In this document: in pieces, positions 1,981-22,146 of the stretch
Layout: every line of letters starts with the position of its first letter
How positions within the stretch are numbered: position 1 is the first letter of the stretch
From: an uncultured Porphyromonadaceae bacterium
GTDB taxonomy: Bacteria; Bacteroidota; Bacteroidia; Bacteroidales; Muribaculaceae
DNA length: 64,000 nucleotides
Assembly: GCA_947177685.1 (NCBI GenBank)
Contig: CAMWVE010000013.1
Coordinates: forward strand, 1-64,000
Reading direction: 5' to 3'
Program-made: the position numbers and the translations under genes
Notes under the pieces: generated by a model
Databases searched by the model: none
What the model saw: only the letters and a program-made list of their open reading frames with translations
What the model was told of the DNA's origin: nothing

Positions 1981-1983
1981 TTG

Positions 1984-2379
1984 TGGAGATGGAGGGATTT
2001 GAACCCTCGTCCAAACGTGGAACTAATGAGTTTTCTACATGCTTATCGCTTATTGGTTTTCGAGAATCAACAGGCAAACGACAGCCAATTGGTTCCTTAT
2101 TCGCTAAATTTTCAGATTCTCCACGCGAAAGAAAGAATCCTATTCCCGATTTTCCTGCACCGTCTGATCGATGTGTCTCGGGTCTACGACCATCGGACGA
2201 TGTCTTGTCGCTGCAACTGTTGCGGCGATTAAGCTAATCTACTGTACTTCGATTAAGCAGCAAGAGCGTAGTTATTTTCGCCATTTAAAAAATTCAATGT
2301 CCATGTTTAAAGAGAACAGCCATTATGTCTCTGCATGCTTGCTCACCACCTCTACACGCTGTCTAAACCGGTCATCCCC
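1984..2379 (-). ncRNA. ssrA: transfer-messenger RNA (tmRNA)
   Basis: tmRNA rescues stalled ribosomes and tags the nascent protein for proteolysis. The 5' end GGGGATG (2373-2379) pairs with CATCTCC (1985-1991) to form the acceptor stem. The T-arm sequence GAGGGTTCAAATCCCTC precedes the 3' strand. The discriminator base is at 1984, and CCA is not encoded. The tag frame at 2253-2282 reads GENNYALAA and then a stop; the first Ala comes from the charged tmRNA. Length is about 396 nt, and the gene is of the single-piece type. A consensus promoter lies just upstream (2404-2435) and a terminator just downstream. Confidence 0.96.
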
Positions 2380-16184: not shown

Positions 16185-17779
16185 CAACTTTCCTTATTTC
16201 ACTCGCAATCCTGATCATCGGCTATGTCATCTACGGTTTCATAGCCGAAAAAATCTTTGGTGTGGAGCCTGAACGGACCACACCGGCAATAGCCAACAAC
16301 GACGGCATCGATTTCATTGTGATGCCTACATGGAAAGTGTTCCTGATTCAGTTCCTTAACATAGCCGGACTCGGTCCGGTATTCGGTGCCATAATGGGTA
16401 TTATGTTCGGTCCGGCAGCTTTCCTGTGGATTGTGTTCGGAACAATATTTGCCGGTGCTGTGCATGACTTCATATCAGCTATGATTTCGCTGCGTTCCAA
16501 TGGCAGTTCTCTTCCTGAGATTGTAGGACATGAATTGGGTGGCACCGTAAGAAATGTGATGCGTGTGTTTTCCATCGTTCTGCTCATACTCGTCGGAGTT
16601 GTATTCGTCATCACTCCGGCAGGTCTGTTGGCAGACCTAACCCATGCCACAGACAGTAATGCTTTGGCACAAGGGCTCATTGAAAACACTGACTGGCTTG
16701 CCGATGCTCTGGGCAATCCTGAATGGTACTATAAAATGCTCGATAATGTTGCCTCTTTTATGGCATGGATTGGAGTATCTCTTGACAAAACCGTGTGGGT
16801 AGGCATTATTCTTGTTTATTATATGCTTGCCACCGTACTGCCCATAGACAAGCTTATCGGCAACCTTTACCCATTGTTTGGATTCGCGCTGTTGTTTATG
16901 GCAGTTGGGATATTCGTGGTCCTGATCTACGGTTCAATCACCGGCACAGTAACCATTCCTGACGGTCTCACCGACGGGCTGCACACCCGCTACAAGGGAG
17001 ATGCGGCTCTGACTCACCCCATCTTTCCAATGATGTTTGTGTCGATTGCCTGTGGCGCAATATCAGGATTTCATGCCACCCAGTCACCGATGATGGCGCG
17101 CTGTCTGAAAAACGAGAAACTCGCTCGACCCGTATTTTACGGCGCAATGGTTACAGAAGGATTCGTGGCGCTGATATGGGCTGCCGGTGCCATTGCATTC
17201 GTAGGCGGATATGACGCTATGAGCGAATATATGAAAACAAACACTCCCGGAAGCCTTGTTCATGATCTGTCATTTGACTGGCTCGGCACTTTCGGAGGGC
17301 TGCTCGCCATGATAGGTGTCATAGCAGCACCCATTTCTACCGGCGACACTGCACTGCGTAGCGCACGCCTGATTGTGGCTGACTTCATGAAGATGAGCCA
17401 GAAGAAATTCCTGTCGCGACTGGCTATCTCAATACCTATCTTTGCCATTGTCTTTGCCATGATGTTCATTGACTTCAACGTGCTGTGGCGTTACTTTGCA
17501 TGGAGCAACCAGACTCTTGCGGTGTTCACTCTGTGGGCATGCACCGTCTATCTCGCAAGGAAAAAGAAGTTCTACTACATCACCCTTCTACCTGCAATAT
17601 TCATGACAGCGGTAAGCGTCAGCTATCTCATGTTTTCACCACGTCCGGAAGGTCTTGGCATCAACTGGGGAATTTCCGTGGCTGCGGGAGTTTGTGTGGC
17701 AATCTCCTTTACCGCACTGTTCTATAATTTCCTGCGGAAATACAACAATAACAAAATAACCCGCAAATTTGACTATTGA
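16181..17779 (+). CDS. cstA: CstA-family carbon starvation / peptide or pyruvate transporter
   Basis: CstA-type proteins are large inner-membrane transporters; in E. coli, members import peptides or pyruvate. The 532-aa protein has many hydrophobic spans and the family segments GPVFGAIMGIMFGP, GTIFAGAVHDFISA, CGAISGFHATQSPM and APISTGDTALRSARL. It is shorter than the E. coli proteins (about 700 aa), as is usual for the short CstA form. It overlaps the genes on both sides. No LytTR-type two-component genes are near. Confidence 0.92.
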   Translation: MTTFLISLAILIIGYVIYGFIAEKIFGVEPERTTPAIANNDGIDFIVMPTWKVFLIQFLNIAGLGPVFGAIMGIMFGPAAFLWIVFGTIFAGAVHDFISAMISLRSNGSSLPEIVGHELGGTVRNVMRVFSIVLLILVGVVFVITPAGLLADLTHATDSNALAQGLIENTDWLADALGNPEWYYKMLDNVASFMAWIGVSLDKTVWVGIILVYYMLATVLPIDKLIGNLYPLFGFALLFMAVGIFVVLIYGSITGTVTIPDGLTDGLHTRYKGDAALTHPIFPMMFVSIACGAISGFHATQSPMMARCLKNEKLARPVFYGAMVTEGFVALIWAAGAIAFVGGYDAMSEYMKTNTPGSLVHDLSFDWLGTFGGLLAMIGVIAAPISTGDTALRSARLIVADFMKMSQKKFLSRLAISIPIFAIVFAMMFIDFNVLWRYFAWSNQTLAVFTLWACTVYLARKKKFYYITLLPAIFMTAVSVSYLMFSPRPEGLGINWGISVAAGVCVAISFTALFYNFLRKYNNNKITRKFDY

Positions 17780-17783
17780 ACCT

Positions 17784-18620
17784 GTGAACTCCGAGCAACT
17801 CATATCACTCATTGGCGACAGCAGGAAATACACACTTCACTCCCACACTGAATTCTGCGACGGTCGCGCACAAATGGAGGCGTTCGCCCGTAAAGCGGTT
17901 GAAATGGGATTTGATTTCTACGGGTTCTCACCCCACTCTCCCCTGCCGGTGGTTTCAGGTTGCAACATGCTTGCCGGAAAAGTAGGTTGCTACTTAGAGG
18001 AAGTGGATAATATTCGCCGGCGACATGGCGACCATGTCAGGTTCCTTGCGTCCATGGAGATTGACTATCTTGGTGAACAGTGGGGTCCCTCCCACCCCTT
18101 TTTTCAGTCACTCCCGCTCGACTACAGAATAGGCTCGGTGCATTTCGTGCCTACCCGCGACAATGAGCCTATTGATGTCGATGGCAGTCCCGAACGGTTT
18201 GCGATGAGAATGAACACAAAGTTCAACCGTGACATACGCTATGTTGTCGAGAAATTCTATGAACACTCCATCATGATGGTGCAACAGGGAGGGTTCGAAA
18301 TCATAGGTCACTTTGACAAAATTGGAGAAAACAGCAGTCGGTTTGCACCCGGTATAGAGAACGAGTCATGGTACATGTCACTGGTCGATGAACTGATTGA
18401 CAACATAATAGCCAAGAAAATCATCGTCGAGATCAACACCAAAGTCTATGCCGAGCGTGGCAGACTGTTTCCAGCTGTCCGCTATTGGAAAAAACTGATT
18501 GACAACAATGTTCCTTTAGTTGTCAATAGCGACGCACATGTTCCGGCACTAATCGACGCTTCGCGTCAGGAAGTTTTTGACATGCTTGATTCTGTCAAAA
18601 AAGCAGGAACGGGCTGTTGA
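17784..18620 (+). CDS. PHP-domain phosphatase, histidinol-phosphatase-like
   Basis: The protein has the PHP metal motif YTLHSHTEFCDGRAQM near the N-terminus, GFSPHSPLPV, an internal Glu (SMEIDYL), IIGHFDKI and the last motif VVNSDAHVP. These are the four metal-binding motifs of the PHP superfamily, and the pattern and length (about 280 aa) fit HisJ-type histidinol-phosphatase. No his genes lie nearby, so the substrate is uncertain. No ATG is available at the beginning: GTG at 17784 is 4 bases after the cstA stop, while TTG at 17769 would overlap it. I chose GTG. Confidence 0.82.
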   Translation: MNSEQLISLIGDSRKYTLHSHTEFCDGRAQMEAFARKAVEMGFDFYGFSPHSPLPVVSGCNMLAGKVGCYLEEVDNIRRRHGDHVRFLASMEIDYLGEQWGPSHPFFQSLPLDYRIGSVHFVPTRDNEPIDVDGSPERFAMRMNTKFNRDIRYVVEKFYEHSIMMVQQGGFEIIGHFDKIGENSSRFAPGIENESWYMSLVDELIDNIIAKKIIVEINTKVYAERGRLFPAVRYWKKLIDNNVPLVVNSDAHVPALIDASRQEVFDMLDSVKKAGTGC

Positions 18621-18695: not shown

Positions 18696-18727
18696 TTTGC
18701 TAATTCCAGAATTAATATATAATTTTG
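18696..18727 (+). promoter_or_regulatory. consensus promoter with no downstream coding gene
   Basis: TTTG (18696-18699), exactly 20 bases, then TAATTTTG (18720-18727) is a perfect Bacteroidetes promoter. The start would be near 18733, and a terminator follows at 18772-18805, with no usable reading frame between. Confidence 0.85.
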
Positions 18728-18732
18728 TCCGT

Positions 18733-18805
18733 GTGTTTTTCATAGTATTAGATTAAGATAAAGGTTTAGACGAGGGTATGTCGGGAGACAAGCCCTCTTT
18801 TTTTT
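18733..18805 (+). ncRNA. candidate small RNA of about 72 nt
   Basis: The unit runs from the predicted start of the promoter at 18696-18727 to a terminator: GAGGG...TGTC, loop GGGA, GACA...CCCTC, then eight T residues (18798-18805). The 5' half is unstructured and AT-rich (TTTTTCATAGTATTAGATTA) and could pair with targets. No ORF fits inside. I have the impression that this 5' sequence recurs in other Bacteroidales, but that is memory, not a search. Alternatives are a short attenuated leader for the HU gene 200 bases downstream, or a member of a known Bacteroidales RNA family. Confidence 0.65.
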
Positions 18806-18941
18806 GATAGTAGCTTGGCGAATAAGTCCTGTGTATCTTGTAGAAAATTTAGTAGATAAACACCTCATTTGAGGCATTTTTATGAATATTTATGGGGTAA
18901 AAGAGGAAAAATACTGTTTTGTGGAAATTTTTTTAAAGAAT

Positions 18942-18975
18942 TTTGCGATTTTTTAAAATATTACTCCTATATTTG
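18942..18975 (+). promoter_or_regulatory. promoter of the HU gene
   Basis: TTTG (18942-18945), 22 bases, then TATATTTG (18968-18975). The spacing is slightly long. The leader would be about 25 bases before the ATG at 19006. Confidence 0.6.
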
Positions 18976-19005: not shown

Positions 19006-19278
19006 ATGAACAAAAGCGAACTCATCAATGCTATCGCAGAAAAAAGCCAACTGACAAAAGCTGAAGCTAAACGTGCTCTGGAAGCCGCTATCGAAACTGT
19101 TACTGAAGCTCTTGCTAAAGATGACAAAGTTACTCTCATTGGTTTCGGAACTTTCTCTGTTGCCAAAAAAGAAGAGCGTACCGGCATCAATCCCCGCACA
19201 AAAGAAACAATCGTTATCCCCGCCCGCAAAGCTATCAAATTCAAACCCGGAAGCGAACTTATCAATAAAGCAAAATAA
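19006..19278 (+). CDS. HU-family DNA-binding protein
   Basis: This 90-aa histone-like protein bends and compacts DNA as a dimer. I start at ATG 19006 (MNKSELINAIAEK), the standard HU N-terminus; upstream in-frame codons overlap the promoter. Conserved features are GFGTFSVAKKEERTGINP and the RNPxT-like arm, here NPRTKE, then IPARKAIKFKPG. A strong terminator follows within 15 bases, so it is transcribed alone. Confidence 0.97.
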   Translation: MNKSELINAIAEKSQLTKAEAKRALEAAIETVTEALAKDDKVTLIGFGTFSVAKKEERTGINPRTKETIVIPARKAIKFKPGSELINKAK

Positions 19279-19557: not shown

Positions 19558-22146
19558 TCAGTTTCTGATAATCTGTTTACGGATTGAACCGTCAGAGTAG
19601 CGCACTATGTATAAGCCGCTTTCAGGCGATTCTACTCGCTGACCCTGAAGATTGAAGTATTCAACAGGTTCGGCTGTCATGTCGATGGCAACTCCTGTTA
19701 CACCGCTTTCCTCACTTGCAATGCGAATATCATCGATATACAGTGTGGTTGCAGCATCACAACCTTCGGCATGCAAGCCCAGATAGTAGATGCCGGGAGT
19801 TTCTACAAAGAACTTGATTGAGTAATCAGTCCATGCAGTGAATTTGGCTTTGTCATATTCCACGATCGGGAGTGTGAAAGTGCTGAAATCCTTAGCATCA
19901 GTTCCCAAGTAAGCGCCCCAACGGTGAGTGTCATACGACTTGCCTGACGCGCCGAAAGTAAGCACATAAGTACCTTCTTTATCAAACTTGATGGCAGGTG
20001 AAACAGCCCAGTCATTATACAAACCGTTGCTGGTTCCGTAGACATAAAGTTTAAGAACTTTATCGCCGGCAGGTGAATTTTTATCGGTAGCCATTGACCA
20101 TCCGGCACCACGCTGCTGGTGAGGATTTTCATTTGTAATGGTCCATTCGTCAGTTCCTTCCTCGAAGTTACATGAATAAGGAATTGATTCGGGAGCCTTG
20201 GTGATGGATACATTATCTATTTTAAGGGTGCAATAAGTGGCAGTGGTAGTGCCGTGGAACGCAAGGTGATATGTGCCCGCTTTTTCAATGGTGAATGTCG
20301 AACCGGGGCTCTTGATCCATGCACTTCCCACCTTTTCATCTTCATGTGACTCAATGTCAGCAACCATATTTGCGTCAACAGAGGGAGCATCGGCAATGTA
20401 GATTGACCATGAGTGGGTGTCACCTGAAAGAGAACCGTTCATCATATACTCAAGGCTGTATGTTCCGGGCTCAAATTCAATAGCAGGTGAGAACATGTAG
20501 TCGTTGCAGGGTTCTGCTGAACCGGCGCTCTTGAGCTGTGCGAAATTGCCGTCATAGCGCTGGTAGGCATATCCTGCTGCAACTGACCAACCGTAGGAAG
20601 TGTTTGTGTGATTATTCACGAATGTCCATAAAGAACCATCCTGATTGTTTTCGAATCCTGAGAAGTAAGGGATTGAAGCAGTTTTGACATAGGTAACAGT
20701 GTTGCTGTCATCGGCATAGCCAATCACACCGCAGGTAATAGGTTGAACGGAATAGTAATATGTTCCGGCTTCAGTGAGTTCGTCAACAAAAATTGTTTCT
20801 GCAATATTGTCACCGATTACATCTTCTTCCGTACCCTTTATTCGCCATACACGGTAAGTGATATTATCATAATCAGCATATCCGCCATGGTATGTTGCTG
20901 TGGGAGCTTTCCATGTGATAGTGACGGTTGCATTTTCGATTTCTGCCTTGAGATCAGTTACGGGCATCAGTTCATCCGCACCCACGAAAATTGTTTCAAC
21001 CGCGCCGCGACCATGTTCGTCACCGGCAACTGCTGCCACCATATATGACTGATTTCCACCCGGAGCGGCTTGATCAGTGTAGCTTGTGGCATCAGCAGGA
21101 AGTGTTGCTATGGGAGTTTCAGCACCAAGTCGGTATACATTCACGGCTGATACGGTTACCGGATTACCCTTGAGGTCTACCGTTGGAAGGGTCCAAGAAA
21201 GAATTGCATCGTTAGGATTATAATCCGCAATCTTTATGGTCAGATCAGCGGGTGCTTCAGGACCTTTGCCACTGAATTCCTTCTCAAAATACAAACCGGT
21301 CACCTCGGCGTTTGCTCCGAGTATGCTTGCCTCGTTTTTCCATTTAGTTTCAGGGTTAGGATCTTCTGCCATATATGAAGGCACACCTGTCGCCGGGTCT
21401 ATAGTCAGGAAATAACCGTAGTCAGGATGGCTCTGTGCCCAGTAGAGAACGCCTTCATTGTCGAAAGCCATTGACTGGAACTGATTGGTGGTGGCAATTG
21501 AGTGCTGACTACCAATCTGTGTAGCCTTTCCGGTGAACTTGTCGAGTTTGTAGAACTGACGGTATTCTCCCATGGCATAAAGATTACCTTCGGCATCGGC
21601 AGCAAGCGTAATGAGGCTTTCTTCTACCTCCTTGCCATTGCCGTCGATAGCTTTGAGATTGCCGGGAGAACCTACAACGATGCAATCGCCTGTATTCAGA
21701 TCCACAATGTTAAGCGATGTCGTGCCAATGGACGATGTAACAATCTTGTCCTCCACCAGCGCGTACATTGTATTGGTGGTATAGTCATAAGTCATATCCA
21801 CCACACGACGTGTGTCATTATAAAAATTCACACTCTTGAGAGTCTCAAAAGTCTTTGCATTGAGCACGCGATAGCCCATTGCCGATACACCGCCCATTAC
21901 ATCAGGATATACCTCAAATGTGTAGTAAATACCATCAACACATTCACCGGCTGAAACATGAGTCTCGCCGTAATTGCGCTTATCCATTGTGGGGGTAGCG
22001 AACTGCGATACGGGGAACGATATATAACCGAACATGTTTTTTTCGTCGCCCATCTGATAGCCGTGCGCCACAGACTCCGCACTCATGGCGGGAGCAAACG
22101 CAGATACAGCTATTGCTGATAAACCTAAGATTAACAACTTTTTCAT
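19558..22146 (-). CDS. large secreted protein with fibronectin-like and choice-of-anchor (jelly-roll) domains
   Basis: The 862-aa product has a signal peptide (MKKLLILGLSAIAVSAFAPA). Residues about 30-300 look like a propeller or WD-like region (AADAEGNLYAMGEYRQFYKL, MAFDNEGVLYWAQSHPDYGY). Two fibronectin type III-like domains follow (about 300-395 and 395-490). Then come two related 'cleaved adhesin/choice-of-anchor J' domains, beginning IPYFSGFENNQDGSLW and IPYSCNFEEGTDEW. The C-terminus EYFNLQGQRVESPESGLYI is the short sorting-like tail common in Bacteroidales surface proteins. The role is probably at the cell surface; the ligand is unknown. Transcribed alone. Confidence 0.85.
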   Translation of the reverse strand: MKKLLILGLSAIAVSAFAPAMSAESVAHGYQMGDEKNMFGYISFPVSQFATPTMDKRNYGETHVSAGECVDGIYYTFEVYPDVMGGVSAMGYRVLNAKTFETLKSVNFYNDTRRVVDMTYDYTTNTMYALVEDKIVTSSIGTTSLNIVDLNTGDCIVVGSPGNLKAIDGNGKEVEESLITLAADAEGNLYAMGEYRQFYKLDKFTGKATQIGSQHSIATTNQFQSMAFDNEGVLYWAQSHPDYGYFLTIDPATGVPSYMAEDPNPETKWKNEASILGANAEVTGLYFEKEFSGKGPEAPADLTIKIADYNPNDAILSWTLPTVDLKGNPVTVSAVNVYRLGAETPIATLPADATSYTDQAAPGGNQSYMVAAVAGDEHGRGAVETIFVGADELMPVTDLKAEIENATVTITWKAPTATYHGGYADYDNITYRVWRIKGTEEDVIGDNIAETIFVDELTEAGTYYYSVQPITCGVIGYADDSNTVTYVKTASIPYFSGFENNQDGSLWTFVNNHTNTSYGWSVAAGYAYQRYDGNFAQLKSAGSAEPCNDYMFSPAIEFEPGTYSLEYMMNGSLSGDTHSWSIYIADAPSVDANMVADIESHEDEKVGSAWIKSPGSTFTIEKAGTYHLAFHGTTTATYCTLKIDNVSITKAPESIPYSCNFEEGTDEWTITNENPHQQRGAGWSMATDKNSPAGDKVLKLYVYGTSNGLYNDWAVSPAIKFDKEGTYVLTFGASGKSYDTHRWGAYLGTDAKDFSTFTLPIVEYDKAKFTAWTDYSIKFFVETPGIYYLGLHAEGCDAATTLYIDDIRIASEESGVTGVAIDMTAEPVEYFNLQGQRVESPESGLYIVRYSDGSIRKQIIRN

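Follow-up and report, generated by a model that had tools for sequence, protein, structure and literature searches.

A predicted small RNA of the FopS/GibS group in Muribaculaceae

FopS and GibS as the closest described systems

FopS and GibS are small RNAs (sRNAs) of Bacteroides thetaiotaomicron that silence sugar-uptake and metabolic genes and act by base pairing (PMC11697453, PMC7366714). FopS, a family of sRNA paralogues, pairs with susC-type mRNAs at their start codon and thereby represses them, and its action is counteracted by the RRM-1 protein RbpB, which binds the 5' part of the RNA (PMC11697453). The authors of that study excluded short open reading frames (ORFs) at the FopS loci, and one phage copy of FopS is mentioned there.

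In the open-licence literature, FopS and RbpB are named together only for B. thetaiotaomicron and P. gingivalis. Our searches of the same literature found no paper on FopS-type sRNAs in Muribaculaceae, and none that joins Muribaculaceae, RRM proteins and Bacteroides. Here, we describe an sRNA locus of this group in the window, i.e. the whole 64,000-nucleotide stretch analysed (contig CAMWVE010000013.1, assembly GCA_947177685.1), which originates from an uncultured member of the Muribaculaceae.

Anatomy of the locus

The sRNA gene is located between a PHP-domain gene (17769-18620) and the HU gene (19006-19278), and all of its features lie on the forward strand. An earlier note on this DNA, made from the sequence alone, had claimed a promoter at 18696-18727, a rho-independent terminator ending at 18805 and, between the PHP and HU genes, a transcript of about 72 nt without an ORF. 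All of these claims held: the boundaries give approximately 73 nt, and no ORF is conserved among relatives.

The promoter consists of a -33 box TTTG (18696-18699) matching the consensus and, after a 20-nt spacer, a -7 box TAATTTTG (18720-18727) of the form TAnnTTTG, and together they agree fully with the consensus of Bacteroidetes promoters. The exact motif TTTG-N19-21-TAnnTTTG was found five times in the window, versus 0.83 expected from shuffled sequences. As about 0.8 occurrences per window are expected by chance, the motif alone is weak evidence, and the case for an sRNA gene therefore depends on comparison.

The predicted RNA spans positions 18733-18805 (about 73 nt; the match to Rfam family RF04319 covers 18733-18807). 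Its 5' end may lie anywhere from 18731 to 18733, since the GT at 18731-18732 is also conserved. The unpaired 5' part (18733-18768, GTGTTTTTCATAGTATTAGATTAAGATAAAGGTTTA) is composed of an R1-type seed, GTGTTTTTCATAGTATTAGAT (18733-18753), which is nearly invariant in our alignment of relatives (A1), and of an extension delimited in the same alignment, TAAGATAAAGGTTTA (18754-18768), which includes AAGAT, as GibS does, and contains five nucleotides specific to the sub-type named type A below. A hairpin follows. It is an intrinsic terminator (18772-18805), supported by folding and by strong covariation, with an 11-column stem (18772-18782 paired with 18787-18797) interrupted by one A.A mismatch, a GNRA-type GGGA loop (18783-18786) and a run of eight T (18798-18805). 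The terminator was absent from the list of a simple terminator scan, probably because of the A.A mismatch. Folding of the 73-nt transcript gave a minimum free energy of -18.3 kcal/mol (z = -2.5). Of the readings considered, the earlier suggestion of a trans-acting sRNA, with an unstructured 5' seed and a 3' half made up of the terminator, fits best.

A tmRNA with the tag GENNYALAA was observed in another part of the window (1981-2379, reverse strand).

Similarity to Rfam families and conservation in Muribaculaceae

At its default threshold, Rfam gave no entry at the sRNA locus. A covariance search in E-value mode, of the kind that the earlier note had proposed, identified FopS (RF04319) as the best match, over the whole model, with 47.2 bits (cut-off 56; E = 5.7e-6). 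The second match was GibS (RF04182), with 38 bits (cut-off 115). The default cut-off of Rfam thus misses the window's copy of the sub-type. The first 21 nt of the RNA match the GibS consensus throughout, with one base different from FopS, which bears out the likeness to other Bacteroidales sequences that the note had mentioned.

A covariance model (R1) was built from 31 copies (alignment A1). The window copy scores 90.1 bits with this model, and copies were detected in all 147 sampled Muribaculaceae genomes. Both the hairpin and the 5' segment, a search for which in other genomes was also proposed in the note, recur across the family. The terminator stem is paired in 96.6% of cells (30 distinct sequences), versus 70.6% in shuffles and 34-57% in slid controls, and changes on both sides were found in 10 of its 11 pairs. 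Of 115 distinct regions upstream of the 5' GTG, 89 have a TAnnTTTG box that ends 3-6 nt before it, versus 0.8% at random positions, and in 83 of the 115 the distance is exactly 5 nt, as in the window. A simple ORF test placed each of the 119 loci examined between genes. We infer from these sequence comparisons that 18733-18805 is a real, independently transcribed sRNA gene.

The exact Muribaculaceae-type 36-mer was also found in the public metagenome-assembled genome records L078, L091, L139, L158, L171, L188 and L189, whose titles (Staphylococcus, Lachnospiraceae, Clostridium, Paenibacillus etc.) are probably wrong. As exact 36-mer matches are chosen for identity, they were excluded as evidence of seed conservation.

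Two sub-types of the RNA

In this analysis we coined the names type A and type B for two forms of the RNA. Type B is canonical FopS (CATGGTATTAGATTTAAGGTTAA), while type A, to which the window copy belongs, carries CATAG and five extra nucleotides (GATTAAGATAAAGG). These five nucleotides are absent at the extension in the type B copies L002, L034 and L037. A type A copy of Heminiphilus (L117) reaches 56.1 bits with RF04319.

In a sample of 295 Bacteroidales genomes, type A (up to 3 mismatches allowed) was found in three families only (f1, f22 and f103), and each of the 11 matching genomes had a single copy. Two type A copies are present in one f1 genome, G010. Among the 147 Muribaculaceae genomes, type A occurs by score in about 80, a rough split made by eye at E < 1e-12.

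The genome of the window contains three copies detected by model R1, i.e. the window copy and paralogues at C11:14870-14941 (reverse strand) and C22:11081-11151 (forward strand). Both paralogues exceed the Rfam cut-off for FopS (77.9 and 61.6 bits, respectively). The C22 copy (L264:5082-5152) starts with AAGTTTTTC, not GTGTTTTTC, and is located between an L21 gene and a gene for an HxlR-type regulator; a TPP riboswitch scoring over its Rfam cut-off lies at L264:8970-9071. In another genome of the family (G013) we counted 14 FopS-like copies, several of them with one 37-base partial match in common, pointing to recent amplification. The whole FopS-like element was also detected in 30 of the 39 IMG/VR viral contigs that hold the seed (L192-L230), some of which may represent host DNA flanking prophages.

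Distribution of RRM-1 proteins

The RRM_1 profile (PF00076) was used as a proxy for RbpB. No match to it was found in the genome of the window, nor in any of 59 Muribaculaceae genomes, each at least 90% complete, whereas 28 of 39 other Bacteroidales genomes gave a match. In the same 98 genomes, FopS-like RNAs were detected in 59/59 Muribaculaceae and in 9/39 other Bacteroidales. As for the other type A families, RRM_1 was found in none of 4 genomes of f22 and in 1 of 3 genomes of f103 (in a 615-aa frame). The profile matched in the FopS-bearing families f3, f20, f24, f28 and f30, and in f41, in which at least one genome carries FopS, in 1 of 4 genomes. This pattern is to be read as a clade-level association, based on few independent events.

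It seems that Muribaculaceae have lost the RbpB-type antagonist of FopS. Since the profile was found in 0 of 59 genomes, the published antagonism by RbpB probably cannot operate there. One could go further and speculate that Muribaculaceae, with one or two related families, possess a distinct, usually single-copy intermediate between FopS and GibS that works without RbpB, and that loss of the antagonist accompanied rewiring of the seed, leaving the same network under different or no protein control. We regard this extended scenario as possible but rather doubtful.

Predicted mode of action and alternative explanations

In our opinion, the window encodes an sRNA of about 73 nt, belonging to type A of the FopS/GibS group, which would pair over start codons and block ribosome entry. 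We assign this reading a probability of roughly 0.75, with transcription, pairing and repression all argued by analogy to FopS and GibS of B. thetaiotaomicron. The RNA would be transcribed independently of its neighbours, and its 3' half would be its own terminator. Its single-stranded 5' end, made of the R1 seed and the GibS-like extension, would pair over the starts of mRNAs beginning with AUGAAAAA, mainly those of genes for outer-membrane and secreted proteins, and the resulting block to ribosome entry would repress translation. Without an RbpB-type protein, the sRNA might act alone or with another RNA-binding protein.

The best pairing site found in the genome is over the start codon of a gene for a PepSY-like lipoprotein (L267, C35:3052-3474; PF11396), with 16 contiguous pairs and -21.2 kcal/mol. 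Its p-value against shuffled seeds (0.0005) is optimistic, because the site was picked by a genome search. The site went undetected in 29 orthologue loci, for which start codons were guessed and of which a few are truncated. Compared with other genes, the starts of eight susC genes have a slight pairing advantage (p = 0.047), but they pair no better than five genes of the window that start with ATGAAA. The signal for susC as a preferred target is thus only marginal. The genome-wide pattern of anti-seed sites showed no clear excess over a reversed control. The neighbouring gene 19558-22146 (reverse strand) pairs with the type B sequence at -17.3 kcal/mol (p = 0.009), and more weakly with type A. 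As the susC pairing is weak and the PepSY-like site is not conserved, the mechanism is proposed by analogy.

That no conserved target was found leaves some room for a second explanation, in which the sRNA is real, its 5' segment is kept chiefly for protein binding or titration, and mRNA pairing is secondary. The conservation extends over 36 nt, which exceeds the usual length of a seed, and RbpB does bind the 5' part of FopS in B. thetaiotaomicron. However, the searches of Muribaculaceae genomes gave no RbpB-type protein, the known binder, and B. thetaiotaomicron FopS and GibS work by pairing. Moreover, part of the seed, TTTTTCAT, is the complement of starts of the form ATGAAAAA, a common start-codon context. 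We consider this explanation unlikely.

HU lies on the same strand 200 nt further downstream, and also follows the RNA in a sister species, which might indicate that the element acts in cis on HU, as a leader or attenuator, with occasional read-through of the terminator. However, HU has a promoter-like site of its own, TTTG-N22-TATATTTG (18942-18975, forward strand), identified by a pattern search, the N22 spacer lying outside the 19-21 nt of the exact scan. Furthermore, HU was near none of the 35 other loci tested, and the 5' end of the RNA pairs with the HU start no better than chance. In view of the genomic context, the separate promoter-like site and the chance-level pairing, such a role was rejected as very improbable.

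Across the Muribaculaceae no conserved gene neighbourhood was found: at the 119 loci the neighbours differ, with few recurring pairs, and they vary widely between genera. Together with the FopS-like copies in viral contigs (30 of 39 seed-holding ones), this would fit a mobile repeat or relic without cellular function. However, the near-invariant seed, the covarying stem and the fixed promoter spacing need selection to be explained, and the finding that 11 genomes have a single type A copy each also speaks against a mobile repeat, an explanation which we find scarcely credible.

Finally, translation into a very short peptide, starting at the GTG (VFFIVLD; in the window copy this frame ends after 7 codons) or at an ATG in the hairpin, is the least plausible idea and was rejected. 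The GTG frame is identical among type A copies, but in type B it stays open and differs, and its third codon positions are no more variable than the others. The 9-codon ATG frame of the window hairpin is not kept in relatives, which either interrupt it or lack it.

The proposed start-codon-pairing sRNA extends a network of Bacteroides sRNAs studied by experiment to Muribaculaceae, which count among the major bacteria of the mouse gut. Three points are new as far as our searches reach: the sub-type (type A) as such, the way it is distributed, and the fact that it occurs where no RRM-1 protein is detectable. FopS-type RNAs in the company of no RRM-1 antagonist constitute a natural experiment, in which the need for RbpB becomes directly testable.

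Comparison with FopS and GibS

The sRNA of the window shares with B. thetaiotaomicron FopS (PMC11697453) an R1-type 5' seed in a short single-stranded 5' half, a 3' half formed by one Rho-independent terminator hairpin (covarying in our alignment), a canonical sigma-ABfr promoter, a length of about 71-75 nt and the presence of paralogues in the same genome, here two more copies. It differs from FopS in having CATAG instead of CATGG, and in the 5 extra nucleotides after the seed, so that R1' is not as in type B (CATGGTATTAGATTTAAGGTTAA). In addition, the genome of the window has three copies, compared with 12-15 in Bacteroides, and no RbpB-type (RRM-1) protein was found in it.

GibS of B. thetaiotaomicron (RF04182, PMC7366714) is about 145 nt long, versus 73 nt for the window sRNA, and has a PM2 promoter in place of a canonical one. 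The two middle hairpins and the distal terminator of GibS are missing from the window sRNA. The R2 core reads AGATAA in the window and AGATTA in GibS, whose R2 should contain AGAUUA, as we derived from a mutation of UAAUCU published for a target. On the other hand, the first 21 nt (R1) are the same in both RNAs, and AAGAT follows the seed at the position of the GibS R2 region. By its sequence, the window RNA is a relative, or sister sub-type, of FopS and GibS, and its kind is already known. Since the type A sequence after the seed (AAGATAAA) resembles that of GibS (AAGATTAA), type A looks like a GibS-like 5' end placed on a FopS body.
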